A stretch of DNA of 64,000 bases from Hansfordia pulvinata. Lineage: Eukaryota > Ascomycota > Sordariomycetes > Xylariales. Positions 4,173-64,000 of this stretch are shown piece after piece. The stretch is from positions 1,054,001 through 1,118,000 of the forward strand of contig BJKQ01000015.1 in NCBI GenBank assembly GCA_006538405.1, given 5' to 3'. Every line of letters starts with the position of its first letter. Positions within the stretch are counted from its first letter, which is position 1. The position numbers and the translations under genes are program-made. The notes beneath the pieces are model-generated. The model saw only the letters and a program-made list of their open reading frames with translations, searched no databases and was not told where the DNA came from.

Positions 4173-6720
4173 GGGGGCGCAAACCTGGCTGGGATACTGG
4201 GGAGCTGTGAGAGGAAACCCATTGGCTCAGTAGGTGGCCGCGCCGTATGCGACCGCTTTCAGCTTTGTCCTTGTGATAGCACCAGATTAGCACGGCTACG
4301 CGGCCAGGTCTGATTGGCTCGATTCCTGGTGAGGGCTCGGACGAGGGTTTGCAGCTTTAGGAACAGTGTTAATATACAGCTTAATGAGCACGAGCAGCAT
4401 TCCCTCTGCTGAATAAGACTACGGGGACATATCCAAATGGAGGGCCAGCACGGATGCGAACTGGTAGAGGCAGAATGGCAAGTAGGGAACTCCTGGCGGA
4501 CTCGCTGGGCCGGCGCCAGCAGATGCGTTATGAGATCAGTTCGCGGTGGCCGGCTGGGCTTGAAACAAGGTCATGAATATCTTGTCTCTGCATTGCAGTA
4601 GGCGAGACACAAGGGCAAGCGTTCGCGGGCTTGTTGGCCCGATTTGGAGGGGAGGCCAAGTGTGACGGGCAACATTAGATTGGTCGCAGTGAGAACACAA
4701 GTAGCTGATTCGCCACGGCATGGATGTGCCATATGTATGGATGTCGTCAAGTATTCGGAGTTGCCGGCGCGTGCGAACATTGGTCACGAAGCAGTTGTGT
4801 CGTCGAAGCAGTCCGGGCCTCAGCGCCAAGGTGCGACGGCGGCGTCTGGCACGACCGCATCAAGTTGGGGCCAGATAGGACGGTACAGGCACATGGCAAG
4901 TGGTCGTGCGCGCCCTCGGTGTGCGGAGTACTCGTACGAGTAGTTGCAAGCAGGCGGGCGACGCAAGGGAGGTCGAGGCGACAAGGCAGACTCTTATGGA
5001 CGCGAAAAAGCGCGGACAAGCCCCTGCGGGCGCTTTACGCGTGGATGGGGACGAGGAGGAGGTGGTGGTGGGTCGAGAGGGAGTGGAGGCGTCCTCGATG
5101 GCGGCCGTGGCGGCATGGGTCGGCGCCTGTTTTCTGGGCCCTATTCCGAACTGGGCTACAGCCTGTCGGTCCCACGACAGCCGAAGGCTTGCTGCTGGAT
5201 AGCAGAGTCGTGACATCGCGTTCCATCACGTCACGTCCGGAGTGCTGATTGTCGAAGGCGCAGCAGCTTCTGCAACGGGTCTCGCGGGCGGGCAGTGTAT
5301 GGACACGAGTGGTGGTAATGGGCGGTAAGCTAGGGTGGCGAGCAAGCAGAGCGGGCCGCCGCAGGATCGGGCCCGTGTTTGCTAATTGGCGCGACAATGA
5401 GGCGAAGAGCGAACGCGACGATTGGTGAGACGGGCGAGCAGGGTATTTGCCCATGCAGCCCGCTGGAGCAGCTGACCGACGGCTGCTTGTTCGAGTAGAC
5501 GCCGATCGACGGTGGGAGGGGCCTGGCCAGTACTCGTACGAGGGTTGATGCCAACCTGCAACCGCTCGAGACCCTCTCTTCATTCACCTCATGAAGGCTG
5601 CAATCCAAGGGTGGACGTCCGCCGTGGAGGCGGCTCACACATATTGAAGCAGATGAAGACAGCACCAATGGCGTCGCTTGCATTTCGACTCTGACAGGTC
5701 ACCGGCAGCCTGGCGCGCTGCTGGGAGGCATGCAAATAAAGTGCTTGATCCAGACTGTCTGCCGGTAGGTAGGAAGTGAGCGGGGTTGTGATGCGTGTTA
5801 GGTGGTGATGATCTTGACCCAGCCCGAGTTGCAGCGTGTGTGTGATGGGAGACCATTAGGGCGATCGATGACTGTAGCGGGTACATCGCCGAAGGTACTG
5901 ACAGCGACACAGGCACACAGGTTGAGCGAGATACTCGAAACTCTGATGTATCTTGTATTTGGCCGTTCTCTCATCTCGTCGAGGCCGGGGCTGTCCTTGC
6001 TGGGGTTTAATGGGCGGTCGTGTACCCAGGTACGCGCGCTCCAAGGCCGATCAAGTCGCGGCCTCCCGCTTTGAGGCTGGGATCGAGGCATATCGACACA
6101 CTGAACGACTTACCAGTCGCCCACGGCGCAAGTACACACGCGTCGCCAACGGTCCCCTCCACTGCATGGGGACGCTAGAGGCGCGACCAACGGGGGCGCA
6201 CGGTCGCTCACGACCTCTGGGCACTCAAGCGGCGCGGCCTCAGCCTGGGCCCCAGGTCCCGGCTCCACTGGGCCCGACGCGTCTTGGAGGGCACCTGCAG
6301 GTGGCCTGTATCACTTTTAATGGCCGCCTGCCCAGTCGCTCGTCTGCGTCCAGCTCTTCTCCGCCGCCGCCCGTCCCTCTCTCCCTCACCCACAGCCTCT
6401 ATCCCACTCTCATTCAAATCCCGGCTCAACCCCCTCGACTTGCCTTCCAACTTCTATTTCCGTCGGCCTCGCACACAAACACAAGAGTGCGTTCCAGACC
6501 TCACCATACGACCTCGCACAGCTTCCGATATTACCTCACATTCAATACAATCAACCGTCCCAGATACTCGTACTTGACCTGCATCCGCACTGCCCCCCGG
6601 CCACCTCTGCTGGCCGCCTACCCTACGCCGTGTAACCCTCTCCCGCCTCTGTCTCTGTCTCGGCCTCCCTCCATCCAGCCAATGAGCCTGGTGGCCCAGA
6701 GTTGAGAGACCTTCCTGTCT
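4173..6720. other. Gene-free stretch with palindromic TACTCGTACGAGTA motifs
   Basis: No gene can be supported. The open frames around 4640-5600 are GC-biased and overlap on several strands without domains or splice logic. A perfect 14-bp palindrome TACTCGTACGAGTA lies at 4929-4942, a 12-bp form TACTCGTACGAG at 5531-5542 and a half-site at 6565-6573. From about 6330 onward the plus strand becomes strongly CT-rich, as is usual in promoters and 5' UTRs of filamentous fungi, and probably belongs to the gene starting at 6894. Confidence 0.5.
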
Positions 6721-6893: not shown

Positions 6894-7852
6894 ATGGCTT
6901 CCGTCTCTCGCCAACCTCTCGGTGCTGTCACCGGTGCTCGCCTGCACTCTCTGACCAACACCAAGAACGCCCAGAATGGTATGCCTCGCAAAGAAAGACA
7001 GCACCAAATAGGATGAAGACATACTAAACAGGACCAGGCATCACCACAACTCCCTCTTCCAAGAGAAAGGCCGCAGACTTCGATCTGTTCAGCGATGAGG
7101 AGAATGTAGACCCACAGCCCGCCAAAAAGTCGAAGGGCTCTGACCCTCTCGCTCCTAAGTCTTCGGCTTTCACCTTCACTGTCAAGTCGGGCCGCTCTGA
7201 CTTGCCCTTCAACACGCCTCTCTCTCCTCTCCTCTCCAAGGCGCCTGCCACCAAGACTCCTGCCAGCAAGATCAGCACCGCAATCCCCAGGACCGCCCTC
7301 TCCACGCCTGCTGGCCGCTCGCCTACCCGCGGCAGGCGGGCTGGGATCCTGTCCTCTCGCCGATCTGGTTCCTACTCCCGCGTAGACCCTCCTGCTTTCG
7401 GCCTCTCCAAGCCTTCGACTCGCCCTTTCTCTCTCGACGCCGCCCTGAAGGGCACTATGGGCAGCCAGTCGACCAAGTCGGCGCCCGTCAGCGATCTGCT
7501 GGAGCCGCCCATGAAGAAGTCGTGGACCTTTGAGATCCACGAGGACACCCCTGAGCAGGAGCTCACCAACATTCTCGAGCACACCACGGGCACCCTCGAC
7601 ATCAGCTCGGACGAAGAGTCGGAGAAGCGCCTGGCTAAGCAGCAGGCCGAGGAGAAGGAGAACGTGCCGCCTCCGGGCGATGTCTCGCAGACCTCTCGGC
7701 CCCGCGCGGCGCGCCGTGCAGCCGAAGCCGAGGTCGCCAAGGAGGAGAAGGCGGCAGAGCGGTCACCCCTGCAGGACCTGGACGTGCGCGAGTACTACTC
7801 TGAAGGACATGACGAGTCGTCAGTGGTCATTGTCCCTGGCGACGAGGACTGA
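6894..7852 (+). CDS. Conserved hypothetical nuclear-type protein
   Basis: Proposed as join(6894..6978, 7038..7852), 299 residues. Exon 1 encodes MASVSRQPLGAVTGARLHSL and ends with donor GTATGC. An ACTAAAC branch sequence lies just before the acceptor at 7037, and the phase-1 junction recreates a Gly codon. The protein is mostly disordered and basic in the first half, with an SSKRKAADFDLFSDEENVDP patch typical of nuclear proteins, then a Pro/Ser/Thr-rich stretch. A better conserved-looking block follows (SWTFEIHEDTPEQELTNIL, then LDISSDEESEK near residue 210), and the C-terminus is acidic. The layout matches proteins found across filamentous ascomycetes, but I do not know a function and name none. 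It lies about 3 kb upstream of thymidylate kinase in the same orientation, too far for any shared transcript. The splice model is well supported because both sides read through cleanly. Confidence 0.8.
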
Positions 7853-9270
7853 GTCCTTGTCGGTGCCCATTCGGCCTCTGGACTTTGAGGTTCAGCCACG
7901 GCCTGAGCGGTGACGGCTCTCGCTGCGGACACCAGTCGGAATGGGAGGATTGTGTGGTTCTTCTGGGATTGGTTTGCACTCTACGACCGGATGTTTGTTT
8001 CATCACGCTTCATGGGACTAATGACTGTTTTGGGACGGGCGTTTTCGCGGGACTTGGTTTCTACTTTGGCGCATTGGGAAAAATCGGTGGACGTCTTGTT
8101 GGACTCTGGCTAGGGGTTGTTTTGAGCGGCTTGGTCTGTTTGGGTTTCCGCCAATGTTTGGTCAGATTTTGTGCGAGCGATTGGCCCTCGAGGCTATGAT
8201 GCGGTACGGCAGATACTGCTTATTCTGATGAATATGACATGACCGACGGCTATCCTTCTACCCAAACCCTTGAAGCAATCAGCAATGCGCTTTGCGGATC
8301 ATGCACCTGCAGGAGATATGCCTCCCCTTCAGCTTGACCATCGACTTGCTTGCGCCCCTCGACACGCTATGGAAAAGCGTATCGAACCTCCATACGCCCA
8401 GGGGCACTCTGGCGTCGAGTCGGCATCCAATAGGCTCAAGTGGAATGCGGGTGCCTGAGCTGTGCATTCCAGCGCGTGCGGCCCGAAGCTGATCTCATCT
8501 CATCGCACGTCTATTAGAGTTTCCAGCACATACCCACAGCCGCCCTGTCTCACCGATGCACGCCCTGTGCCTGGATGCATATCGAGGGAGATGAGCAGGG
8601 CGGCCCTTGCATGGGCTCCAGGGCGGACGCCAGTTGGTGGATGTTGGACGCATGTCAATAAGGGGCCTAGGAGGCGGCCCTGATTGGGCTTATACTCCCC
8701 TGTAGAGGCAACTCTCCGATCTATTCCTGCCCACAGTTGATCATGCTGGTCCTGCCTCAGGCTCGGACATGGGAGACGCTCGAGATGAACATGCTCCCCT
8801 CACAATATATCACAATGAATTGGCATCACTTCGCGCGGCCTTGCAGTGGCTAGCTCAATTCGGCTAGTGCGATTCACCACTCAACGCAAAATAGATCAGA
8901 AGGGAACTCGTACACCACCACCTCAGGCCCCGGGGTTGCCCGTACAGCTAATGCCACCGGTGTAGTCCCTGAACTTGCAAACCACCGCCCGGTTGTTCAC
9001 AGCCCTGGATAGCACACATTTACTCGGCTTCATTCGTAAACATTGGGAGCCTTGCCAATATTCCCTCCGGAACACTTCGAGTCGGCTCTTGGCAAATTAT
9101 AGCTAGCCTCCTTGGCCATTGAACGTTTTGAGTGCCTACGCCCCAAGTGGCCCGTTGAAACCTTACCGCTTTTCCACCTCCTGGCTGCGGGGCAGGTTCC
9201 GGTGGCCTGTGTGCAGCTTTGCCCGCCCACCCCCTGAAGCTCGGGCACCTGAGCTCCCGTCCACCGCCCA
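7853..9270. other. Intergenic region, no gene seen
   Basis: The first few hundred bases (7853-8200) are GT-rich and probably 3' UTR of the preceding gene; long open frames there have no coding character. From 8200 to 9270 I see no domain, signal peptide or splice logic on either strand. Confidence 0.5.
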
Positions 9271-9860
9271 ATGGCTTCAATCAACGACCTGGCCGCCGCT
9301 GCCACGATAGCTTCATCCGCTGTCGCCATGCAGAACCAGAACCTGTCGGAGTCGGGCCTGTCCGGCTCGGGCCCCCAGCCAGAGGTGGCGCCCCCACCGC
9401 AAGCAGACGGCAACAGCAACGACAATAACAACGACGCCGGCAGCGCCCAGCAGCCGCCCGCCGCGCCGCCGCCTCCTCGCACACCGCCCGTGGCTCGCTC
9501 GCCCGCCACCACGCGCACACCGCTGCCCGCCTCCGCCGGCTCCGGGCCTGCTGCTTCCGCCCCGGCCTCCGCGCACGACGCTGGCGGCGCCGGCGTCCCA
9601 GCCACCCACACCTCCCCTCCCGCCCCCGCCCCGCCTCCTCCGCTGCTGCTGCTGCTGACGCCCGCCCTCACCACACCGCTGCTTCCCCTGGAGGGGCTTC
9701 AGCAGCGGGGCCCTCGCGCACGTCGGCGGAGGAGGGCCACCACGCGGACACGAGCGCGGCCTCGGCCGCCGTGGCTGCGGCGGCCGCGGCGGCTGCTGCT
9801 GCTGCGGCTGCGGCGTCGTCGTCGTCCGCTGCTGCGGCGGCCCCCGAGGCCGCGGACGCG
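9271..9860 (+). other. Ala/Pro-rich open segment upstream of thymidylate kinase
   Basis: An ATG at 9271 opens a frame encoding a Ser/Ala/Pro-rich low-complexity chain to about 9640. From there the Ala/Ser-rich reading continues instead in the thymidylate kinase frame, through a long Ala run at about 9768-9840. Joining the two needs a one-base shift near 9630-9665 in GC-rich DNA. Either the kinase has a roughly 195-residue low-complexity N-terminal extension interrupted by a true or artefactual frameshift, or this is a 5' leader and translation starts at 9861. I favour the latter because the kinase domain begins shortly after 9861 and needs no frameshift. Confidence 0.4.
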
Positions 9861-10826
9861 ATGGAGGGGGTTGTCCAGCAGCAGCAGCAGCCGGTCGCGC
9901 CGGTAGCTCCCCCGTCTCCGGCGGCGGCGGCGGCGGCCCCGAGGCCCGTCCGCGGCGCCTTCGTCGTCTTCGAGGGCATGGACCGCGCCGGCAAGACGAC
10001 GCAGGCCAAGCTGCTCCAGCAGCGGTGCATCGAGAGCGGGCGCACTGTGCGGTTCATGCGGTTTCCTGGTAAGGCCTCGCCCGTTCTGCGCCGGGGTGTT
10101 CACATTTCGATCGCGAGGTGGAAAGAGGGTTATCGACCTGCATGACCCTGAGCTGACGGCCCGCCAGATAGGAGTACCCCGATCGGCCAGATGATCGACT
10201 CGTACCTCAAGGGGCAGGCCGAGATCGAGGACCACGTCATCCACCTGCTCTTCAGCGCCAACCGGTGGGAGGCCATGTAAGTTGACGACAGTGCCGTCTC
10301 CCAAGTAGCCAAATTTGTAAACGCGGCGCTGACCGACCCACGTCCCCTCAGCAACAAGATCAAGCACGAGCTCGCCAGCGGCCACACCATCATCTGCGAC
10401 CGCTTCTACCACAGCGGCATCGTCTACAGCGCGGCCAAGCACCTGCCCTCGCTGCCGCTCTCGTGGGCCAAGGCCCCCGAGGTCGGCCTCCCGCGGCCCG
10501 ACGCCGTGCTCTTCCTCGACCTCGACGAGGGCGTGGCCCGCCGCCGCGGCGGGTGGGGCGGCGAGGTCTACGAGAAGGGCGAGATGCAGCGGCGCGTCCG
10601 GGAGCTGTTCTGGGGGCTCAGCAGGGGCGAGCTGCGCCCCGAGGGAGCGGCGGGGGCGGCGGGGGCGGGGGAGAATCCGTTCAGGCAGGAGGAGGAGGAT
10701 ATCGAGATCGTGGACGCGGCGCTGGGCGTCGAGGAGCTCTCCGACAAGGTCTGGACGCTGGCGCTGGCGCGGATCGAGGCGGTTGAGAGGGGTGATGCCG
10801 GGAGGGAGGTTAGACTTGTCCAGTAG
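9861..10826 (+). CDS. Thymidylate kinase (dTMP kinase)
   Basis: Proposed as join(9861..10068, 10168..10276, 10352..10826), 263 residues. The enzyme phosphorylates dTMP to dTDP in the dTTP pathway. The P-loop [11 protein letters not shown] sits at residues 37-47. It is followed by [11 protein letters not shown] (substrate-binding DR motif, rebuilt across intron 1), then the CDRFYHSG motif equivalent to DRY..SG, and a LID-like segment ([14 protein letters not shown]). Intron 1 (99 bp, donor GTAAGG) and intron 2 (75 bp, donor GTAAGT) both restore conserved residues, so the model is strong. Relative to the roughly 215-residue yeast enzyme it has a 30-residue Gln/Pro/Ala-rich N-terminus and a Gly/Ala-rich insertion ([10 protein letters not shown]) before the C-terminal helix. 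A longer N-terminus starting at 9271 would need a frameshift. The strand opposite is also open for long stretches because of GC bias. Confidence 0.9.
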
Positions 10827-11477: not shown

Positions 11478-12663
11478 TCAAGATCCGTGAAAGTTATTCT
11501 GTGCGGTGTCAGCAAGGTCCGGTTTCCACAGTTTGAGAGTCAACTCACCACCTGATCCTTGATGCCGATGACAGCATACTCGGAACTCCCATAAGCCTGA
11601 CCGATGAAGACCCCTCCTCTATCTGCCGAAACCTTGTCGTGGAAAGTCACGTCCCCTTGGCGTACAGAAACTCCCTGTGGCTTCTTCAGTCAGTTAAGCC
11701 GGGCTTGGGGTCAGGATACTGAATCTCACCTTATTGGTGTCGGAAGGGTTCTTGATTTCTTTAATCCAGCGGCTCAGCAGCCCGGACACACTTCGGTACC
11801 CATCGCTCCCAGCGGCTTGGAACCGGCACATGCTTGTGTGGTCGGAGTTGTTGATAGGCAGGCCGTCGCACCCTGGCAGCGTGGCCGAAGCGTCTGGTAC
11901 TATCTTGCCAACGACCCTGTTGAAGTCGAAGGTCTCGATGAAGCATGCGACTTTGACCGAAGGCTTCTCATTCGATTCTTTCCTCGCGTCAAGGTACTTC
12001 AAGAAGGCCCTTTGAATGCACTGGAGCTTCTCCGACCCCTTTTTCAAGCTCTCGAGGTCTTTGTCGTGTACCTTGAGGGGGGTGAGACTCTGCACAGCCT
12101 TTCGAAGAATGCCGGACCACCTCTCCACGGCCGAGCTCGAGCCTGCGAAGGGCGTACCCATGAAGGCTATCCCGGCGGTCCGATCAAGCAGATTCGCTAC
12201 ATCTTTGTCGGCCCCGTGGTGCATGGACAGGGCGTTGGCACACACGAGGCCGCCCAGGCTGTGCGCAACGAAGATTAAGGGGCGATCGGACTTGCAAGTC
12301 GTGTTAATTATGACGTTGAGAAGAGAGTAGGCCACTCACTGTGTTGGTTCTGTCGCGAACATTGGCGAGGTCCTGCAGCAGAGACGCGGAGTAGTTGTCG
12401 ATTGACAGCTCGCTTGGGACCTGCTTTGGCCCGTATACCGGGTAGAATGCGACAACGTCTGCTGCATAACCAAAGGCGAAGATTCTCGCCGTCGGGCAGT
12501 CCTTGGGAAGCAGGTCCCTAGGCCAGAATACGGTGTCTCCGTTGCCGCGCCATGTCCACGTCTCCTCCCTCTTGCCATTCAGGCCGTGGACAAAGACGAC
12601 ATCCACTTCGGCCTCAGTCGGGTCGGCGAGAGGGTCACTCAGTCCCTTATTGTTGTCTGCCAT
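11478..12663 (-). CDS. Alpha/beta-hydrolase (SesB-type) with C-terminal amyloid-like motif
   Basis: Proposed on the minus strand as exons 12663..12340, 12290..11730, 11674..11549 and 11498..11478, 343 residues. Donors are GTGAGT, GTGAGA and GTGAGT; branch sites are ATTAAC, CTGAC and CTGAC. The serine-hydrolase fold shows an oxyanion HG (residues 26-27, VFVHGLNG), the nucleophile elbow VAHSLGG with Ser119, a MGTPFAG strand, and a catalytic His259 in SDHTSMCRF. This matches the lipase-like DUF676/PGAP1 family used as N-terminal or stand-alone effectors in fungal NLR systems (SesB in Nectria). The last two exons add a separate Gly-rich tail, residues 311-343: SADRGGVFIGQAYGSS, EYAVIGIKDQV and NNFHGS. 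It closely matches the N-terminus of the divergent NLR gene. The proposed role is a membrane-lipid-acting death effector switched on by amyloid templating; this is inference. If the last intron were retained, the chain would end two codons later and lose NNFHGS. Confidence 0.85.
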
Positions 12664-13607
12664 GGCTCTGTGCGTGCTTCGATATGTCTGCGTGTGGTGC
12701 AGGAGTGGTGGCTGGTATCACCACGGCTTGCAAACTTTCACCTGAGCATTCCGTAGACCGGGTCGTCCCTTCTTAGAGGGCGAAAGAGGAGACAGGGGAA
12801 TGCTGCAGCGAGGCCTTCAAGACGGCTACGCAGGGCGAGGCAAGCTCTGGTGTAACCGCCTCTCGGTACCTTCGGACTGAGCTGCTCCATGCTGCAACCC
12901 AACCTCCCAGGTCGTTTGACCTGTCCGAGGAAAGCTCCCGTTATCATCGTCGGTGCTCATTGGCAGATGGCCGGTCTCTTGGCACGCACTTGCCGGCCTA
13001 CCATCGGTGGTGGCGCAGCCGGTTCAAGTGAGAGCTGGGGTTGAACGCGTCAGCGCATGTCCCGGTCCCAGCTGGCACTGGCAGCACATACTCGTAGCCT
13101 CGCCCATGCCCCTCCTCACCCATGTCCGCTCAGATGTACCTGAGCTCATGAGCTTGCGAGAAAATTGGCCTCAAGAAGATAATGATGCATGGAAGCCGCT
13201 GGAAAAACGTACATACTTGGTAGAATTGCTCATGAGCGCCAAATCGCACTCTGCTGACAGGGGGCTCGGCCTGGCATGTCTTATACAGCAGGTGAGTCCA
13301 GGGTAGAGCAGTTTCGGGGACGGATTTGTGGTAAGCAAGACCAGAAGAGCTGCGGGGAGGGGGATGCGCTTCTTGTACAGCCCACCTGATCGAAGGCCAG
13401 AGCCCCTCCCGCCCATTCCACTCGTTCTGTTCCGCCCGGTCCCGTCCCGTCTCTACGTTTTCTTCCCGACCTGGACTTGGAATCACTGCCAGCTACACGA
13501 CGGAAAGCACTCGCTCCATACATCAGGTACCTGATCACTGCATCATGCTGGAATAGCCCCTTTTGAGTCGTCTTCTATCCGCCATCGGCAGAGACCCGTC
13601 CACACCG
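12664..13607. promoter_or_regulatory. Divergent promoter region between hydrolase and NLR genes
   Basis: The 944 bp separate the two start codons, which face away from each other. No other gene is visible in it. A plus-strand CT-rich tract at about 13400-13480 precedes the NLR start. Shared control of the two partners is plausible but not shown by the sequence alone. Confidence 0.55.
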
Positions 13608-16600
13608 ATGGATCGCCCGGGTATGAGCGCCGACAGGGGGTCTGTCGTCTTCAATGCTGCGCCTGGGAGCTCGGCCATTGGTATCCGTATGCGCCCTTCG
13701 TCAAATCCAGTCTCGGGTCACATCCACTAACGTGGCGTTCAAAGAAAACCAGACCAATAACTATTACGATGGCTTCGCCGCTCAACAAGCGGCCGAGTTC
13801 CGCAAGCATATCAACCAGGTCAACCCCGATGCCATAAGGAAACGCATCCGTGATGACAAGGATGTCTTGAATGAAGATGTCTACCGTTGGGCCCTGGAGG
13901 ATCCAGCCTTTCTCAGATGGCACAGTAACGACGACCCCGACAGTCGCTTGTTGTGGGTGAAAGGGGACCCGGGGAAGGGCAAAACCATGCTTCTGTGCGG
14001 CATGGTCGACAAGCTGCCGGGGCTGATCACGGAAAAGCACGTTCTGGCTTTTTTCTTTTGCCAATCGGGCGACCCACGGATCAACAGCGCCGAATCCGTC
14101 ATTCGCGGCCTGATCCGCCTTCTTCTCGAGCGTCACCCGGAACAGACACAGGGCCTGGTCAAATGGGCTGACGATATTGCCCCCAGCAACCCTGGCGCAT
14201 GGCAGTCACTGCGGGACATCTTCGATACGCTGCTGGGCGCCATCAGCCTCGACGGCACGTACATCTACCTGCTCGTCGATGCCCTCGACGAGTGCGACAA
14301 TGATAGGGACCGGGACAATCGATTGATCTTGGACCTCATTACCTGCTCTTGCGCCGCTTCTCCTCGTGTCAAATGGATAGTCTCCAGCAGGAACGTCGCC
14401 GGAGTTGAGAGAGGCCTGAAGCACGTCAAGGAGAAGCTGCGCCTTTCGCTCGAGATCAACGCCTCGTTTGTGTCGGCAGCCGTTGACAAGTACATCCAGT
14501 CCAAAGTGGATCGTTTGGCCAAGGACAACGACTATGGTCCGAAAACTAGATCTCGCGTTGCTGACTACCTTTCCTCGCACTCAGAAGGCACGTTCCTATG
14601 GGTTGCCTTGGTTTGTCGTCAACTCGCGAGTGTCGAGGGGTGGCGGGTGCGCGAGCTGCTGGACTTGTTCCCTCGCGGACTCGATCCACTCTACGGGCGG
14701 ATGATGAGTCTGGTGGAAGGTCTGGAGACTAGATTATGTGCGCAGTGCAAAGATGTGCTGTCCACCATCTTGATCGCCCATCGACCCGTTACAATACACG
14801 AGCTGGCTGTCTTGGCCGATATCAGGGCCGAGTACGACGACGATGGCCATCCCGGGCACGGCTCAAGAACAAACCAGCGCCTGGTGGACACTGTATATCA
14901 CTGCGGTTCTTTCCTCACCATGAGAGACGATACCGTTCGTTTTGTCCACCAATCGGCGAGTGAGTTTCTGCGGAACATACCAGACCAGCTTTTCCGATCG
15001 GGCATACAAGCGTGGCATCTCAACTTGTTCCAGCGGTCCTTGCGTATCCTCTCGAAGACGCTGCGCCGCGACATGTACGGCTTGGAGACGACTCATGGTG
15101 GCGACGCTCCAGCCATGTCTGTCGAGCAAGTGGACACGCCGCCCTCAGACCCTTTGATCTCTGTGCGATATTCTTGTCAGTACTGGGCCGATCACCTTTT
15201 GGAGAGTGGGTCCACAGAGTTGATGACTCCAACGTCGAGAAGCTACCAGCTTATGAGCGAGTTCTTCGCGGACAAGTTCATTTACTGGCTCGAGGCCCTG
15301 AGTCTTCTCGGGAGTTTGGCGTTAGGCATGGAGATGATAGGCAGACTCGCGGCCTTTCTTTCTTCAAGCGACCACAAAGCGCCCGGGACTATGAGTAAAG
15401 ACTCAAATCGGTGCTCGGAACGGGGGATGACGCGGCGAATGCTTGATAAAATGAGGAAGCTTCAAAGAAGAATCAGAAACGGCTCTGCGTCGACAACTGA
15501 AGTCGCAAGGATAGGAACATGGCCTGGGTTTCAAGATAAGGGCTGGGTCCGGCTAGAAGCAAAAGAGGTGAGTTGGCCAGACCACGCATCTAACAACCAA
15601 GCCCTAGATGATTCATCGAGTAACGGGGAGTAGGTGTCACAGCTAGCCCCGACAGAAGATTCACTGCACACGGAAACTCTTTCGAGCCGGATTCTGGACG
15701 CCCGCCGATTCATGATGCAGCATCGAGGCGTAATAGAGCGCTTCCCGATGCAGACGTACGCTCCCGCACTTATGTTCAGCCCGTCCAACAGCATCACCAG
15801 AACTCAGTTCGCAAAGTACTCGCCTCAATACATTGCTAGAAGTGCGACAACGGAGATGGACTGGCACGCGCAAATGTTCACACTGGTCGACGCGGAGGAA
15901 GGTTGGGCGGAAGGAATCGCCTGGTCCCCTGATGGCAAGTGGCTGGCGACAGTCCACCAGGGCAAGGAGGCTGACGTGAAGGGCGCCAGCGCGTGCATCT
16001 GGAGCCCGTCCAATGGTCGGCGACTCGCCTCCTTCTGTCATGGACTGGGCTGCGCCTCGCTGGCTTGGGCCCCCGACAGCACGAAGCTGGCGGTGTTCGT
16101 GCTGGTGGATAAATCCGCAGCCGAGGTCCAGATCTTCGACCCAAGCAACACCCGCTGCCCTCTTCTGAGCTACCCAGTGGATATTTCCCGTCTCCATGCC
16201 GAGGCCGCCGACGATCCATATCGCCAGATATTTTCTGACACGTTTCAGAGGACCCGTTACCTGGCCTGGGCGGGCGATGTGCTACTCATGCTGCACCCTA
16301 GTCGTGATTACATCTTGGGATGGAACCAAACAACAAACAGCCAAGTCAAGTCGATAGGCAGAGAAAGGCAGGCCGAGCCGGCCAGAATCTTGGATTTCAC
16401 TATGGTACTGGCCGTCGAGACCCCCCGGATTGCGATTTTGTATGCCAATTTCGACATTGAGTTGCTGGACCTCTTGCCCGACGACCAACATTCCACACTC
16501 TGCCGCATCCAGCTACCCCCTTGGCCTTCGTTCGGACTGGAGTGGTCGCCGGACGGAGTGACTCTCGCCGCCCATTTTCACCACACCGTGGTCGTCTGCA

Positions 16601-17625
16601 ATGGGGAGACGGGGAATCTTCACACCCAAGAGCTGGCCCCACGGACAGTCGAACACTTGGCGTGGTCGTGGGACGGCACGCGGCTCTTGCTGGCAGAGAG
16701 AGATGGCGGTCTCTCGATCTGGGATCGTACGGCAACCAACATCTTGCATCAGTTATCGCACCAATCGGGTCCGGTGCTTTGGAAGACACTCGCTTGGTCG
16801 CCGAGCGGGTTGCAGCTGGCGTCTGTGCAGCTCGGCGTCCCCCCGACAGTTTGGGACGCGGTGGGTGGGCATCAGATGAGGGACGACAGCAGCAACAGCA
16901 CATACTGGTCACCCAACGGGGCCCGGGTGGCAATACTGCGGAGACCCGCCTTGGACTCGCAAGCCGACGTGGAGCTGGAGATTTGGGAGGCGGCCGCGGT
17001 GGTGAGGGCCCGAATGCCAGGGTTCGGTTACCCGCAGGTGATGTGGTCGCAAGATGGCTCGCGCCTGGCCTTCCTTGTGAACTTTTCCCAGGAAAGACAA
17101 GCACAAGTCTGTGTCATTGAGCGCTGCGATGCGCAAGCCTGGCGGTGGCGCAGGAGGGATTTCAACGTTGACGCCTGCGTGCTGGAGCGGGTTCGCAGCA
17201 GCGCTCTGCTGATGTGGGAATGTGACCACCGTCGGCTCATCGAGTGGGACCCCAACACAGACGTGACGACCATTACCGAGAACAGTGGCCCTCCCACGGA
17301 CGAACCGTTTCCGGGCTCTCTTTCCCGACAAGGGCCGGCGCTGACAGGTGATGAAGACGAGGGGCTCGTCAGGGGCGCAAGCTCGAAAAACCCGGGGGTT
17401 GGCCGACGCGTTAGTCAAGTCGCGGAACCTACTTCCTACGGGCTGGACGCAAATGCGACCTGGATCGTTCGTCGCCGATATGTGGACGGACAGCGCAAGG
17501 AGGAGAGATTGATTGCGATCCCTCCAGAGTACCCACCGGAGAACACAGTCGTCACGGACCACACCATTTCAATGTCATCGAATACAGGCCAAGCCCTCAT
17601 CTTTCGCTTCAAAGACGCAGAATGA
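13608..17625 (+). CDS. NACHT-WD40 NLR with N-terminal amyloid-like motif
   Basis: Proposed as join(13608..13686, 13745..15567, 15643..17625), 1294 residues. Exon 1 encodes a short tail: MDRPG, then MSADRGSVVFNAAPGSS, then AIGI. After splicing (donor GTATGC, branch CACTAAC, acceptor AAAG) it continues as QNQTNNYYDGF. This matches the C-terminal motif of the divergent hydrolase. Next comes the linker common before fungal NACHT domains (IRDDKDVLNEDVYRWALEDP). The NACHT has Walker A GDPGKGKT near residue 100 and Walker B YLLVDALDECDND near 202, and ends with FVHQSASEFL. Intron 2 (donor GTGAGT at 15568, branch CTAAC, acceptor CACAG at 15642) removes an in-frame TAG at 15631-15633 and links to a C-terminal beta-propeller with at least eight diverged WD40-like strands (GIAWSPDGKWLA, SLAWAPDSTKLAV, GLEWSPDGVTLAA, TLAWSPSGLQLAS). 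The repeats are dissimilar at DNA level, unlike the fast-evolving HET-E type. Likely a STAND receptor whose oligomerised motif templates the hydrolase; that role is inference. ATG 13623 is an alternative start. Confidence 0.87.
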
Positions 17626-48357: not shown

Positions 48358-50356
48358 CTACAAGTCCTCCTCAGCAAGCGCAGCCGCCAGAGCCTCCTTG
48401 TTCCTCGGCACGCACAGCACCCGGTACGGCCTGGCGGCCATGATGAGGTCGCGCGGGTTCTTCATGTCGACGCGGGGGTCGCAGCGGATCTCGCCCTCGC
48501 CCTCGCCCTCCGCGGGCAGCACCTTGAAGCTGCAGAACAGGCGCATGAAGATGAGGTACAGCTCGCGGGCGGCGAGGATGTGGGCGGTGCACATGCGGTA
48601 GCCCAGGCCGAAGGTGAAGAGGGGCGCGTCGGGCTTCTCCAGCCAGCGCTCGGGGCGGAACTCGTCCGGGTCGTCCCACAGCTTCGGGTCTGTTTCCGGG
48701 TTTATCAGTCAATGATTATGTTTCAGGGAGTGAATGAGTATGATGATTTGGGGGAGGGGGGTGTTGGATTATCAGTCAGTCGGAAGATCAAGTAGGGGGT
48801 TGGAATATCAAACACACAGGTAAGTAGAGTAGTATACATGGACGCAGTTTGAAAAAAAAAAGGGGGGCGCTCTTGGGTCAAGTCAAACAGGCTACGCTAC
48901 AGGCACAGATGAAACACAGGTATTCCCCACTCACCGTGGTTACAGGCCCACGCGTTCAGGTAGACGTCCGTGTCGCTGGGGATGAAGACGCCGTCGTGGA
49001 CAATGTCCTTTGTGGTCTTGCGGGGCAGGGCGAGCGGGACGACGGAGAAGCGGCGCAGGGCCTCCTTGGCGAGGGCGGAGACGTAGGCGCACTTGTGGTC
49101 GTCGGCGGCGTCGCACAGGGGCGCCTCGGGCTCGCTCTCGCCGCCGCCGCCGCTGTCGCCGCCGCACCCCTGGAACTCGCGGATGGCCGCGTAGGCGCGG
49201 TCCTGGATGTGCGGGTGCAGGGCCAGGTGGGCCATGGTCCAGTGCGTCGTGTTGGAGACGGTCTCGAAGCCGCCGGACAGCATGGACAGGCTGATGGAGG
49301 TCAGCTCGACGTCGTTGACCCTGGTGTCCGGGTCCTTGACGATGTTGCCGCGGATGCAGGGCGCGTCGGCGCCGCGGCGGATGCGGTCGTCGAGGTCGGC
49401 GTTGAGGGCGCCGAGGTAGGCGGCGCGGCGGCGGCGCATGTCGGCGGCCTCGGCCGAGGTGCGGTTCCAGGGGCTCAGGCGCAGAAGGGGGATGTGGTCC
49501 TGCAGGTTGCCCGAGGTCGAGCGGACGCGGTTGAGGACCTCCTCGACGAGGACGATCTCGCGGAACATGGCGTCGCGGCACGACGGCATGCGCACGCCCC
49601 AGTTGATGGTCATGACCAGCGACATGCTGAGGCGCTGGATCAGCGGCAGCGGGTCGACGGCTGCCGCGCCCGCGTCGCCCGCCCGGTACAGATCTCGGAT
49701 GAAGGTCCGCGTCTCCACGTCGATGTACGGCACGTACGACTGGATCGCCGGCCGGTTCAGCGCCGCCGACGCCCCCTTCTTGCGCCGCTTGAGCGACTCG
49801 TCGTACGGCGACGTGCCGATGGTGAAGCGTGCCGAGTCCGAGGCGACCTGCGAAAGGGGTGGGAGGGGGAGATGTTTGTTACTACCATCGGTCTCTCTAT
49901 TTGATATATCTGCCGCTACGACCTGGTAACGGGGCTGGGGTCTCCTGGGATGTGTAGGTATGCCGGTATGAAATATGTGCAGTATAGGCTCACCTTGTGG
50001 AACGTATAAGTGACGGGCCGCGAGCTCAAGGCCTGCGTGTTGGCGGCAAACAGCCTCTTGGCGGCGGCGGCGCCGTTGACGACGACGACGGTCGTGTTGG
50101 CCAGCTGCACCTGGTAGATGTCGCCGTACGTCGCCGCCCAACTCTCGTACTTCTGCGCGGCGAAGTCGGTCACCTGCAGTAGGTTGCCGACGATGGGCCA
50201 GCCGGGGGGCCCGTCGAGGCCGCGGATCCTCCTGCGGCCGCGGACGACCTCGTTGACGCCGAAGTAGAGGACTAGGCCGACGACGAGGCCCAGGACCAGC
50301 GACTGCGCCAGGGCGCCGGCGCTGGCCTGGATGTGTGCGAGGGCGGGTGAGATCAT
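48358..50356 (-). CDS. Cytochrome P450, CYP504-like (phenylacetate hydroxylase type)
   Basis: Proposed on the minus strand as exons 50356..49994, 49847..48935 and 48689..48358, 535 residues. Joins use GTGAGC and GTGAGT donors and CGCAG and ACAG acceptors and preserve frame. An N-terminal membrane anchor (SLVLGLVVGLVLYFGV) is followed by the Pro-rich hinge GLDGPPGWPIVGNLLQ. Then come I-helix SMLSGGFETVSNTTHW, ExxR in KEALRRF, and DPDEFRPERW. The heme loop FTFGLGYRMC places the axial Cys at about 459. Blocks such as IGTSPYDESLKRRKKGA, MTINWGVRMPSC and NRVRSTSGNLQDHIPLLRL resemble CYP504 enzymes (Aspergillus phacA/phacB), which hydroxylate phenylacetate or its 3-hydroxy derivative before ring cleavage; assignment from memory of the family. 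Odd: the residues after the heme Cys are Thr-Ala-His where Ala-Gly is usual. Intron 2 (245 bp) is long and carries A and G runs. Confidence 0.88.
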
Positions 50357-50357
50357 G

Positions 50358-50376
50358 TCTCTCTCTCTCTCTCTCT
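50358..50376. repeat. CT microsatellite abutting the P450 start codon
   Basis: CT dinucleotides, i.e. GA on the P450 sense strand, begin one base upstream of its ATG, so they lie in the 5' leader. A GTGTGT and TGTC-rich stretch continues to about 50410. Confidence 0.85.
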
Positions 50377-53067
50377 GCGTGTGTGTGAATGTCTCTGTCT
50401 GTCTGTCTGCGTGCGATAATGTGTATCAAGGTCGAGTGATAGTGCACCTTTGCCAGGACACCATCTACGCATCTCCTGTACTATGTAGCCAGCCACACGC
50501 CCGTGGGAGGCTTACGGTACTTATTATTGTCCTGTCTGCCTGTCTGGGCATGCAAGCCTGATGGTCCCCAGCGAGTCAATGGAACGGGGACAGACCAGGA
50601 CAGGGGTGGCTACGAGGGTCCATCTCTCGGCACTGCGGATGCGGGGTTGCGGTGATGATCGATATGGCCACCCGGCAGGCATAGCCTATCACCTACCGTA
50701 CATATCACCACCGGCTTCTCAGAGGGGACAGACAGCCTACGAGTACTCGTACGCTGCAGATGCAATGGCGGGTGGCCTTGTCACACACGGACTGCTTAGC
50801 TCACGACCCCACGCGGGGACGCAAGATCAGCCGTGTTATTAGCTCCTATTAGTAGCCCTTCCCCCCCCCCCCCCCCCCCCCGAACCCCAGGTTGCGGGTG
50901 CAGATCCCGGTAATCTCTCATGAACTAAGTAAGTGCCGTAGGTAGGTCTGCAGGCGCAACCAGCCAAGCAAAGCCGCTGTGCCCGTAAGGTAAGCCGGAG
51001 ATGTGCGGGTGTGAGACACTGCCGTCACTCGTCCCACTTCTCTCCGGTCGTCCGGTCCGAGTGCAACGCGACGCCACGACGAGCGGCCAATGACGCGGCG
51101 CGGGGCAGTGGTAGTGGTGACAGGGCGGACAGGATGCGTCCGTGTGTCCCTGTCCACGGGTGTAGAAAGAACAACGACGGCTCTGTCCATAGACGGACGG
51201 CGGCTTTCTAAGGGGTTTTCATCTCTGCGCCGCCAGGGCCACGTAAGGGTATGACACATGCTTGTAAGCAAAATTCATGACGATGCCTCGGGCAGGCCGT
51301 CCCTAGCCCCAATGCCGACGACGGTCTGACCGGACCCTGATTGATATTGTCGTACTGGGTCGTGCGAGCCAGGGGGCCTTGAGAAGGGCGTCCCAGCGGA
51401 GTGGGACGCCTGCTATCACTGAGGCCATCGCCACCTGCGTCAAAGGCAGAGACAGATATAGAACACGAGGACCGACGTTCCCGAATGCTTAAACCCGGCC
51501 TTTTCGCGAGCGATCGCCTGGCGAAGGTATCTACCCAAAGTGCAGATCCATGATGCACTCTGCTATCGATGTTTCTCTCTGTCTTTTCTTTTTTCATAGA
51601 TATTCTGAGACAGCTCTTTCTCGTGACTGCAACATAGAAATCTCCTACTTGGACAATGGGGAGTAGGTAGGTAGGTATGCAGGGACGGGAAGCACTGGAT
51701 CGACGGATGTATGTGACCCTTGCGCGGAATAGTCCCCGGTTTAGGTAGCTTCTGAGCCTTGTTCTGGGGGCGAACTGCGCTCCTTCGTGGTCTGTCAAAG
51801 CCTGTCTCGGGCCCCTTCAGCTGATTCCATTCGTGGCCACAAACATAAAGGTGGCGAGATCCTTTATCCTTTGAGCCGACCACCAGGCGTCACTGCCTTG
51901 AGCATGTGGGTTCTTGCAACTCGCGAGACTGGAATCAGGTAGCTGCGGCGCCAGGCTGCTTACGGAGGGGCGAATTCGCCAGGCGTCTTGCCCCTGTTCT
52001 AATTAAGCTTTTTCGCCCAGCGATGGACAACTCGGGGCACACCCGGAGATAATGCTATGTCGGTAGGTACTAGCTACCCTCGTATTTAGTTTACCTCTGA
52101 TTCTACAGAGGGCACAGAAAGGCCGCTTCCATCAGTGTACGAATGTATGGAGAATGGACCTGATGGGGCCTCAAGAGTCCGGTTGTGGCCATCATTCAGT
52201 GGTGATGCTGGATCCAGGTAGGTCTCGTCGCGCCAACGACGTTTTCGACTGCTCGTACAAGGCTCTCTCGCCTTTTGTAGCCACTTTGGGTAGGCAGTCT
52301 GGTGGCCGGACTTGATCATGCGCGAAAGTCGCCGCAGCCACCCATTTTCTCAGGCGACGCCACCACGCTCAGCGCGCCTCGCTGGCCTAACTGCCGTAGT
52401 GGCCATCTAGGCCGCGCAGGGACCGCACGCCTGTTCGCAGGATGCACATCGCTGCCGAGGCGTGCCTCGCGTGGCTCGAGACGCGGAAAGGCTACAAGAA
52501 AGAGGCGGCGGCGGGTGGTGGTGCGCAGCTCGTTGGACAGTCCAGCCCAGCCCGACAGGGCAACCCATCAATAAATACGCTCACAGAGCCACCCGCCCAC
52601 GACTGGATGCCTCGGTGGTTTTCTGCCCTTCTCGCGTCTTGGGCTATCGCTAACACAACGGGACCACTAACACACTTAGCAAAGCCGCTATCACCGCCGT
52701 CAAGGCCGCCCAGGTTACCATCCAGGTTCCGCTCAGTGACACAACACAGTCCGAAGAGGGGAATGACTATACCAATACCGATAAGACTACCCGCATAAAC
52801 TTCGGAACAGTCCGTCAGTCTCTGTCGCCAACAAGGTATAGAGTCGGAAGATATAACACCCGGATCATCCAAGTTAAATTCCCCTCTCAGGAAAGAGGAT
52901 GGCCCTTTCGCGGTCCAGTGCAGACACACACTGAGCCACCGACGTTTAAGAATTTCCCGTCCCGCCAATCTCCAAGCAACCCTTCCGGCAGTCACGCGGG
53001 TGGTTGACGGCTAACAGAACACACGCCTCCCCGCTCGGCCGGAGACTGTTCGCGCCGTCAAAACAAC
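50377..53067. other. Gene-free stretch with long C homopolymer
   Basis: Notable contents are a run of about 21 C at 50861-50881 and a perfect palindrome TACGAGTACTCGTA at 50738-50751. An ATG-less frame at 52654-53004 with protein-like composition (see findings) lies at the right edge. No gene is supported; other open frames are compositional. Confidence 0.5.
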
Positions 53068-62071: not shown

Positions 62072-63796
62072 TTAGGCATTCTTGCCGAACCGGACGTCAA
62101 AGCCTTTGAGGACGCTCATGATACTGGCCGTCTCCACCTCAATGGGTGCTCGGGCCGGCGTCGTCATCTCACGAGGTATCGCCTTGAGCTTTGGGAGCCA
62201 GGCAGCAATGTCATCCGAAGCCACGTCGAAGTTGCGGTGGCTTGACAGCGTCTTGTACGTCTCCGCGACTGATAGACTCGGTCCAGCGCTGGTGGGCGCC
62301 GCTGCTGGCTTGTCCTTGCAGCAACCTCCGGCACGGCCACCACCGCCACAGCAGCCACCCCCAGAAGAGCTCCCCTCGGCGGCAAACCGAGCAGCTAAGC
62401 TACGGCAGAAAAGGCCAGACTTGGGGTCGGAAAGGCATTGCGCACATGTGCCTGGCCCGTTGGGGCCACAGGTTCCCGCCTTCTTGGACCCCTGAGCAGC
62501 AGCACGGTTGAGCGACTTGATTCCCGGCAGCTTGATCGCACCGGTTGAAGTCACCTCTAGAGCAACATCGTTCTCAGACGGTGGAGGCGTTTTGACTTGT
62601 TGGCCCATGGGCGCCAGGGTTTGAGATGCGGCAGCCTCTGCGCACATGCAATAAGTGCCCTCCTCGCAGAAGCCACAAGCGTCACGAGGGGGGATGAGTG
62701 CCTGCGGGGCAGGCTGGAACAGAGGAGGCGGAGGGGGAATGTCCTTCTTCTTGGAGAACATGGCGGTGAAATCGATCTCGTTAGGATAATAGTCAGGCTT
62801 CTGTCTCTTTTCTTCGGGCTCCATGGCGGAGCGTGAAGATGGTCGGCGCTTCAAGTCGAGGTCCTTGCTTGGGGCAGGACCCTTCAAGACGGCCTCGATG
62901 CATTCACACTTGGTGCCAATGCTGCACTTTCCACAGCCAATGGAGGCGCTGTTCAATGCATCCTCAGCACAAGCGCACGCGCCAGTCGAGCCGCAATCGC
63001 CACAGCCAGCAGAGTCATTGAGATGGCCCGTGGGGCTCGACCGGTCAGGCGGCGAGATTATGTTGGAGATGGAGAACGTGTGATGGTCAGAGCCAGTGCT
63101 GACAATGCTGGACCGTGGGAGCTGCTGGCTAGAGGCAATGCTGTGTGCGCTCGGGGCCCGACTATGAGAAATGTGTTGGCTTTGTCGACGGGAGGGGGCG
63201 TTTTCTTCTTGTCTGATTTGGCGTCTCAAGTTTTCAATCTCATCCGCCATCTGGCTTCGTTCCGCTCTTTCCTTCTCAAGGGTGCTCTCGAGGGATGAAC
63301 AGTGGTCTCGTAGACTATGGCTTTCAGCCTCAAGGGCCTGAACCTGGCCCTGTAGCTCTTGAACCAGACGGTCGTGGTCCTCTTTCTGTTCGTCAAGAAG
63401 CTCCTCGAGTTCGCCGACTCGAGCAGCCCTACGCTCACGGAAAGCACGTTGAGCAGCGCGATTCTGGGCCTTGCGCTTGGTTGGCGGGGTGTCCGTGGCA
63501 GGCTTGCGGCCGGGCTTGGGTCTCGGGGGAATAACCCACTCCTTGCTGGTGATGGAGTTCTTCGGGGGGCCGGCGGCAGGCATGGCGACGGCGGCCATTA
63601 TATTAGGAGGCTGACCGCTGGCGGCAGGCTTGATGGCGATCTGAGGACCGGTTGTGGGAGTAGATAGGCCTGACGCGGGCGAGCTGGCTGAGGCAGGAGA
63701 AGAGGCAGCCGAGATGGGAGTGATCGACAGCTGTCTCGGGCGGGCTTTTGCGTTATGGGAGGAGGAAGAGGGAGAAATAGCGGTTGAGGTCGCCAT
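62072..63796 (-). CDS. hapX: bZIP iron-responsive regulator HapX
   Basis: A single minus-strand exon gives 574 residues from ATG 63796; an in-frame ATG at 63874 would add 26 residues, but MATSTAISPS looks the natural start. The N-terminal Hap4-like CCAAT-binding-complex contact region is clear at residues 78-99 (PPKNSITSKEWVIPPRPKPG), directly followed by the basic region (KRKAQNRAAQRAFRERR, 107-123) and a leucine-zipper/coiled coil to about 195. Four cysteine-rich regions follow: CGDCGSTGACAC (265-276), CGKCSIGTKCEC (288-299), CGFCEEGTYCMC (374-385) and a larger one at 443-464 with the CAQCLSDPKSG core. Extra CC pairs in a Gly-rich run (481-493) add to these. In Aspergillus and Fusarium HapX represses iron-consuming genes and activates siderophore genes in iron starvation and also handles iron excess, sensing iron through these cysteines. 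The C-terminal SVAETYKTLSSHRNFD region also fits the family. Confidence 0.95.
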   Translation of the reverse strand: MATSTAISPSSSSHNAKARPRQLSITPISAASSPASASSPASGLSTPTTGPQIAIKPAASGQPPNIMAAVAMPAAGPPKNSITSKEWVIPPRPKPGRKPATDTPPTKRKAQNRAAQRAFRERRAARVGELEELLDEQKEDHDRLVQELQGQVQALEAESHSLRDHCSSLESTLEKERAERSQMADEIENLRRQIRQEENAPSRRQSQHISHSRAPSAHSIASSQQLPRSSIVSTGSDHHTFSISNIISPPDRSSPTGHLNDSAGCGDCGSTGACACAEDALNSASIGCGKCSIGTKCECIEAVLKGPAPSKDLDLKRRPSSRSAMEPEEKRQKPDYYPNEIDFTAMFSKKKDIPPPPPLFQPAPQALIPPRDACGFCEEGTYCMCAEAAASQTLAPMGQQVKTPPPSENDVALEVTSTGAIKLPGIKSLNRAAAQGSKKAGTCGPNGPGTCAQCLSDPKSGLFCRSLAARFAAEGSSSGGGCCGGGGRAGGCCKDKPAAAPTSAGPSLSVAETYKTLSSHRNFDVASDDIAAWLPKLKAIPREMTTPARAPIEVETASIMSVLKGFDVRFGKNA

Positions 63797-64000
63797 TGGG
63801 CCAGTTCGTGGCCTGGAGACCGATCTGGGTGGGAAAGCCGACGAAAGAAGATGATTCGTTGTATGTGGATGCAACTGTGCGGAGACCTCAGTCTACATCC
63901 CAGGGCGGACGCATTCGCTGAGGGGTCAGGGCCATGCACGAGTGTGATGCAATGGCAGGTCTAGGGTCTGGAGGACCACGTCTAAACGCAGAGCAGATCG
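63797..64000. promoter_or_regulatory. 5' leader and proximal upstream region of hapX
   Basis: Only about 200 bp are visible before the window ends. No TATA or obvious GATA-type site of the SreA consensus is seen in this short piece; the promoter continues beyond the window. Confidence 0.4.

Follow-up and report, generated by a model that had tools for sequence, protein, structure and literature searches.

A stretch of 64,000 nucleotides from contig BJKQ01000015.1 of the ascomycete Hansfordia pulvinata, referred to here as the window, contains two divergent genes, one coding for a SesB-like alpha/beta hydrolase and the other for a NOD-like receptor (NLR), and the C-terminus of the hydrolase has a short peptide in common with the N-terminus of the receptor. 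The genome around the window amounts to 46.8 Mb in 63 contigs, and the genes of the window contain introns and have fungal relatives. The pair is composed of the following elements:

11478..12663, minus strand: SesB-like alpha/beta hydrolase gene (putative lipase/esterase), 4 predicted exons, 343 amino acids
12663-12340, 12290-11730, 11674-11549 and 11498-11478, minus strand: predicted exons of the hydrolase gene (rebuilt gene model)
11549..11674, minus strand: hydrolase exon 3, with the bulk of the C-terminal motif, GVSVRQGDVTFHDKVSADRGGVFIGQAYGSSEYAVIGIKDQV (gene model and tail profile match)
11478..11498, minus strand: hydrolase exon 4, with the end of the motif (NNFHGS) and the stop codon (gene model and pairwise alignment)
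12664..13607, no strand: intergenic region of 944 bp separating the two divergent start codons (gene models)
13608..17625, plus strand: NLR gene, 3 predicted exons, 1294 amino acids (gene model and Pfam)
13608-13686, 13745-15567 and 15643-17625, plus strand: predicted exons of the NLR gene (rebuilt gene model)
13608..13686, plus strand: NLR exon 1, with the start codon and the first part of the motif, MDRPGMSADRGSVVFNAAPGSSAIGI (gene model and alignment)
13745..13767, plus strand: start of NLR exon 2, with the end of the motif, QNQTNNYY (gene model and alignment)

The splicing of both genes is predicted, and in the models used the pair is intact. In the rebuilt spliced models the hydrolase ends in VSVRQGDVTFHDKVSADRGGVFIGQAYGSSEYAVIGIKDQVNNFHGS and the NLR begins with MDRPGMSADRGSVVFNAAPGSSAIGIQNQTNNYYDGF, and both contain the terminal peptides that had been quoted in a preliminary description of the window. 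The NLR has a short N-terminus, an NPHP3_N/NACHT domain and a WD40-like C-terminal half, as assigned with Pfam, and its Walker A sequence (GDPGKGKT) begins at residue 100. The hydrolase scores just under the cut-offs of the Pfam alpha/beta hydrolase models; its classification as SesB-like is based on a Ser nucleophile elbow (AHSLGG, beginning at residue 117), on annotated homologues, among them P0030, a SesB-related regulatory protein, and on the alpha/beta hydrolase fold in the AlphaFold model of the homologue P0003, which Foldseek places closest to monoglyceride lipases and thioesterases, with E values from 3.7e-7 and query TM-scores of 0.3-0.4.

A peptide common to the two termini

In a local alignment, residues 311-341 of the hydrolase and 7-34 of the NLR are identical at 16 of the 28 aligned residues (score 68) and follow the pattern SADRG-x-V-x-x-x-x-A-x-G-S-S-...-I-G-I-x-x-Q-x-N-N. 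Shuffled sequences averaged 21.4 (standard deviation 4.3) in one direction and 22.1 (4.5) in the other, and none of 40,000 reached 68 either way, which confirms the segment that the preliminary description had proposed as common to the hydrolase C-terminus and the divergent NLR N-terminus. None of the 120 external hydrolase tails listed reached this score against the window NLR head, the best one scoring 40. At the nucleotide level the two segments are identical at 50 of 84 positions. Codon usage predicts 5.5 shared codons among the 16 identical residues, and 6 are observed. Because the codons differ as usage predicts, recent copying of DNA was dismissed as the origin of the peptide, and its conservation is the simplest reading of the likeness.

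A near-repeat of 12 nt (GCTGACAGGGGG and GCCGACAGGGGG) was also observed at window positions 13253-13264 and 13629-13640. Its upstream copy also reads SADRG in one frame, and the near-repeat may be what is left of a duplicated motif or the product of chance.

Further copies in the genome

When the window tail was used as a query, a second SesB-like gene was found on contig C11 (E 0.007), and the hydrolase domain retrieved this gene together with a third one on contig C7. Each of them (loci L021 and L022, respectively) stands head-to-head with an NLR that carries a copy of the motif at its N-terminus; all three motif-bearing SesB genes of the genome have this arrangement, and the NLR/effector pairing read from the window in the preliminary description is found twice more. 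At L021 the pair is adjoined by a PNP_UDP-like (nucleoside phosphorylase-like) gene (7129-8587, minus strand) with the motif at its N-terminus, which obtains 22.7 bits with the Pfam model PNP_UDP_1, under the cut-off of 25.1; its phosphorylase part, judged by eye, seems to shift frame in the assembly.

A further NLR (L023, C5:2508500-2518000, minus strand, start codon near 4771) also carries the motif and is the best other match to the first 119 residues of the window NLR (E 2.3e-16, 47% over residues 30-117). No hydrolase open reading frame (ORF) was noticed beside it in 9.5 kb, among listed ORFs of at least 150 amino acids and without a domain scan, and it is possibly a receptor whose partner lies elsewhere or has been lost. 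Four other hydrolase matches of this genome (L003, L004, L007 and L008) had no such tail in their ORFs, which were inspected by eye, unspliced and with no profile run.

The four other N-terminal copies (the NLRs of L021, L022 and L023, and the phosphorylase-like gene of L021) share one predicted intron position, the Gly codon at the close of a NIIG-like segment being interrupted behind its first base, and in the window NLR the better donor is found 6 nt downstream of it. The splice models of the window gain support because this intron place is common to the four other copies. The window hydrolase has the motif on exons of its own (3 and 4), but in the L021 SesB the hydrolase ORF runs straight on into it. 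Such an exon layout would let the motif travel as a small exon or module between receptors and effectors.

Compared pairwise, the window SesB tail scores 23-32 against the heads of the other NLRs and the window NLR 23-29 against the other SesB tails, versus 68 for the window pair itself; SesB tails score 43-77 with one another across loci, and the window NLR scores 54 with the L022 NLR.

Distribution in other fungi

A search for homologues of the hydrolase in a database of 5.8 billion proteins gave 681 matches at E<=0.001, and the C-termini were taken from the 120 listed. A search with the tail alone (residues 290-343), in which three shared words of 5 residues are required, gave no candidate. 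A tail profile, begun from ten tails picked by eye, found the motif in 35 of these 120 listed homologues at E<0.01 (the ten being counted among the 35). Four of the 35 tails were traced, one each to Dothideomycetes, Sordariomycetes, Eurotiomycetes and Leotiomycetes. The motif has the consensus SVxxGDVNxxxxIxNNxGVVMGxAxxTAxDGVxITGSxxxNxY; G, N, T, V, I and Y are frequent in it, and L, P, E and K are scarce. All 42 copies considered (the 35 external tails plus seven copies from the H. pulvinata genome, the window NLR being left out) have the first glycine of GVVxG, which is also invariant in a 32-sequence alignment of selected proteins, as are several core residues of the hydrolase.

In a held-out test, a profile built from the 35 external tails only was run on 128 sequences, eight from the H. 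pulvinata genome and 120 NLR homologues, to which the following E values refer. The latter were those listed among 3398 matches to region 1-250 of the window NLR, selected by NACHT similarity and largely HET-NACHT proteins. The profile recognised the SesB tails of L022 (7.1e-17), L021 (1.9e-11) and the window (2.8e-5), as well as the N-termini of the L021 phosphorylase-like protein (6.2e-8) and the L021 NLR (4.5e-6); the NLRs of L023 and L022 were found at E 0.021 and 8.2. The score of the L021 NLR was reached by none of 5000 shuffles and that of the L023 NLR by 7 of 4974. When profiles were compared with each other (hhalign), the external tails matched four NLR and phosphorylase heads of the genome with a probability of 94.8% (E 5e-8) and, in reverse, of 95.3% (2.2e-8). 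The window NLR was given 9.4 bits by a profile of the six other copies of the genome, which contained neither window sequence (2 of 4719 scored shuffles), and 16.0 bits when the window SesB was added to it (0 of 4849 shuffles). By these comparisons the motif is a family, far wider than the window.

P0130, a PNP_UDP-annotated protein (E 0.012, residues 103-141) and the best match among the 120 listed NLR homologues, was considered as an external carrier of the motif and judged a false one. A scan of viral contigs gave no relative.

Relation to known amyloid signalling motifs

Among the clusters compared here, PNT1/SBP/HELLP is that of Chaetomium globosum. The account of known motifs is based on parts of PMC9815663, PMC5485727, PMC3321046, PMC4518210, PMC12258605, PMC12261475 and PMC12881547, and the fungal families catalogued there comprise HRAM, sigma, PP and PUASM 1-2 (PMC12261475). 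In the sigma cluster HET-eN/SesB/SesA of Nectria haematococca, as in the window, a SesB hydrolase with a C-terminal motif adjoins a NACHT NLR with an N-terminal copy (PMC3321046), but sigma consists of GxGxQFNxx and GGTQNINT repeats, and the strings G.G.QF and GGTQN occur in none of the 42 copies. In the PNT1/SBP/HELLP cluster an NLR likewise governs a putative SesB-like lipase via a common short motif (PMC5485727), although PP is centred on a conserved Q, as FxGx(x)NxGLQLxGxNxGxL (PMC3321046), whereas the core column of the present motif is V or I in 36 of the 42 copies and Q in two; the core G[LIVFM]Q[LIVFMA] is found in one of the 42. The NWD2/HET-S system also has an NLR adjoining an effector with a terminal motif in common, but its effector is a HeLo pore-former bearing a 21-residue HRAM motif twice (PMC4518210, PMC5485727) and not a hydrolase. 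Finally, PUASM is a motif common to NLRs and effectors in Pezizomycotina, and a PNP_UDP-like gene also carries the motif here; its pattern (FxGxGxQxxGxGxF) is C-terminal on PNP_UDP, unlike the N-terminal copy of L021, and the sub-pattern F.G.G.Q is present in none of the 42 copies, as far as a pattern test can tell. The likeness to published NLR/effector pairs drawn in the preliminary description is borne out, the architecture being that of the PP and sigma NLR/SesB pairs (PMC3321046, PMC5485727).

The Pfam models for HRAM (PF11558), PP (PF17046) and sigma (PF17106) matched none of eight motif peptides at E<=10, with HMMER filters applying, and two of the peptides had weak, unrelated Pfam matches. 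Profile-profile comparison (hhalign) gave 0.2% both with sigma and with the HRAM motif of the same genome. When representatives of PP, sigma and HRAM were scored with the tail profile, between 376 and 4152 shuffles did at least as well, out of about 4500-5000 scored. Profile searches of the PDB with the motif missed HET-s and returned weak unrelated matches only, whereas the HET-S tail of the same genome finds HET-s (E 0.0084).

Known motifs are present in this genome away from the window. Pfam HRAM occurs once, over the cut-off, in a HET-S-like tail (C1:1133362-1135375) within 2 kb of an NLR-like match; two of six listed sigma matches, all away from the window, are over the cut-off, on C3 and C10; and no place in the genome is over the cut-off for PP (PF17046). 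At C3:2783249-2784521 two sigma matches, one of them over the cut-off, were observed on opposite strands about 1 kb apart, and they are probably a sigma NLR/effector pair.

It seems unlikely that the motif diverged far from one of the known amyloid families (HRAM or PP/RHIM), although this is the most probable of the alternatives. Single positions of the HRAM register do fit, since position 16 is hydrophobic in 35 of the 35 tails, position 10 in 26 and position 18 in 22; but the five hydrophobic positions of the pattern tested (5, 8, 10, 16 and 18, with G at 19; register anchored on GVVxG) occur together in none of the 35 external tails and none of the seven copies of the genome, against five of five and four of five in the HRAM repeats of the same genome. 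As regards PP, the one PP tail among the hydrolase matches listed (P0066) has its core aligned in the motif register as G-V-V-x-G, the two copies with Q have it at the second core position, as in PP, and at least 10 of the 42 copies, which are related and not independent, reach p<0.05 in pairwise comparison with P0066, two of them p<0.01. With the tail profile, however, P0066 is not above chance, being equalled by 376 of 4991 shuffles (381 of 4887 for HRAM r2), and the negative Pfam and PDB searches also speak against common descent with these families. The pairwise lean to PP slightly raised the probability assigned to this alternative. A PP/RHIM link suggested by the resemblance of NNSGFQLGH to NNRGVVMGH was not above chance with the profile and showed a weak lean in pairwise comparison, so that the motif may be remotely akin to PP/RHIM.

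We tentatively regard the motif, with a confidence that stops a little short of even, as one more amyloid signalling family of fungi, separate from HRAM, PP, sigma and PUASM, which is found chiefly on SesB-like lipases of Pezizomycotina, would be able to move as a module and is also present, unusually, on the N-terminus of a nucleoside phosphorylase-like protein. The preliminary description had called it a new or divergent type. This label stands for the motif because the HRAM, PP and sigma profile tests were negative; it does not extend to the kind of pair, NLR-SesB pairs with a common terminal motif having been published since 2012 (PMC3321046), and the novelty may be confined to the motif family. 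The system is, from what its sequences indicate, of a known kind, to whose catalogue the motif family looks like an addition. Literal words of the motif gave no literature match, and a separate motif on SesB-like hydrolases was not found in the parts of PMC9815663 consulted. That survey used effector starting profiles that include DUF676 and Abhydrolase_6, reported SesB-like domains as N-terminal domains of NLRs, and tied paired motifs to pore-forming or enzymatic effectors, PNP_UDP among those named (PMC9815663). The status of the motif as unlisted is provisional, since it may be one of the 818 MEME motifs or of the 22 paired motifs of that survey, or belong to its NLR12 or NLR34 class.

A possible signalling mechanism

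The window genes probably form a two-gene NLR/effector module in which amyloid signalling would occur in trans, via a motif that matches none of the published lists consulted. The amyloid reading is favoured, among other points, by the architecture of the pair, which equals that of the published PP and sigma NLR/SesB pairs, in which SesB-like hydrolases are putative lipases under NLRs with PP or sigma motifs (PMC5485727). In this proposal, the NLR would sense a ligand via its C-terminal WD40-like repeats and oligomerise via its NACHT domain, gathering the N-terminal motifs; the clustered heads would nucleate a beta-arch amyloid able to template the C-terminal tail of the hydrolase, which is homologous to them and probably flexible, and the enzyme would thereby be concentrated or activated on lipid or ester substrates. 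The outcome would be membrane damage, most likely in a reaction of cell death or defence. Beyond the common motif itself, the amyloid fold, the templating, the activation of the enzyme and cell death are inferred. In the AlphaFold model of P0003 (mean predicted local distance difference test score, pLDDT, 76.1), 20 of the first 29 ten-residue blocks are at 83-97, weaker stretches are found at 69-78 and 158-173, and the ten-residue means of the tail are 36-58 from residue 291, a low confidence that is consistent with a tail unpacked from the enzyme. An aggregation hot run is present in all 35 motifs versus 23 of the 35 preceding linkers (Aggrescan scale), a measure that would be weak support for amyloid.

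Several observations weigh against this proposal. The best aggregation windows are near-equal on average in motif and linker (0.65 versus 0.63), and a hot run is missing from one of the four sigma controls. The window NLR copy is short, as it begins at SADRG and is devoid of the V-x-F-H first half; the external-tail profile did not report it among the 128 sequences, and with this profile 555 of 4767 scored shuffles did at least as well. When the seven copies of the genome were added to the external tails, it obtained 2.8 bits, which 275 of 4813 shuffles equalled. Taken alone, the NLR copy of L022 is also weak (equalled by 60 of 5000 shuffles with the external profile), and the L022 SesB tail has no preference for its own locus, scoring 45 with its own NLR, 47 with that of L021 and 45 with that of L023. 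The motif was present at E<0.01 in none of the 120 listed NLR homologues outside the genome, a list that was selected by NACHT similarity and is largely HET-NACHT. Besides, as assembled, the L021 SesB shifts frame twice, over about 100 bases of the hydrolase domain (L021:6230-6470, plus strand), and the L022 SesB (C7:340153-340838, minus strand) does so between the hydrolase ORF and the motif tail, so that these two genes may be affected by decay or by assembly error. The frame changes of the L021 SesB, together with the weak pairwise resemblance to PP, slightly lowered confidence in the amyloid module. The observation reported in the preliminary description is nevertheless real, and its reading as an NLR/effector pair with a signalling motif in common is supported by the comparisons made here.

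The window NLR copy is, as far as these profiles indicate, the weakest member of the family and is linked to it mainly through its partner, which fits a locus-by-locus co-evolution of the motifs, as reported for sigma clusters (PMC3321046). The fit is partial, as SesB tails are no less similar to the tails of other loci than to their own NLR.

Next to the diverged known family, and rather improbable, comes the possibility that the peptide is a non-amyloid docking tag, homotypic or heterotypic (for example, by pairing of beta-strands), bringing the hydrolase to the NLR. Such a tag would leave an identical pattern of paired termini in data that, as here, consist entirely of sequences; but the position, size and composition of the peptide are like those of fungal amyloid signalling motifs, its tail copy is modelled with low confidence, and the PP and sigma systems use such motifs on the same effector class (PMC3321046, PMC5485727). 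A structural extension of a hydrolase subfamily, unrelated to the NLR, would account for the presence of the tail in 35 of 120 listed homologues, but it is very improbable and was already weakened. A chance likeness or an artefact of the gene models, which the predicted splicing and the failure of the external profile on the window NLR head might suggest, is hardly credible in view of the 40,000 shuffles that never reached 68, the 9.4 bits given to this head by a profile free of window sequences and the intron place common to four other N-terminal copies.

A motif family of its own on lipase-type effectors would give this genome one more signalling channel in addition to its HRAM and sigma copies, cross-talk and insulation between amyloid channels would be testable within one organism, and the motif repertoire of SesB-like effectors would exceed the catalogue.

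Other SesB tails and other genes of the window

Two other types of tail were observed among the SesB-like homologues. The first, approximately SSGGGA[VI]FMGNVxAGRDF, is found in P0044, P0046, P0054, P0055, P0062, P0063, P0067, P0068, P0077 and P0093; it is listed without a Pfam label for HRAM, PP or sigma, gives 1.4% in profile-profile comparison with the motif, and is possibly a further uncatalogued signalling motif. The second, approximately VFNGPISGxNVIxGxQVTGGTxNFNFS, is found in P0056, P0058, P0061, P0065, P0079 and P0102 and gives 0.2% in the same comparison.

Elsewhere in the window, a thymidylate-kinase-like gene with a long Ala/Pro-rich N-terminal extension was noticed by eye at about 9253-10826 (plus strand), and Pfam identifies a cytochrome P450 at 48897-50480 (minus strand) and a Hap4/bZIP-type regulator at 62072-63892 (minus strand).

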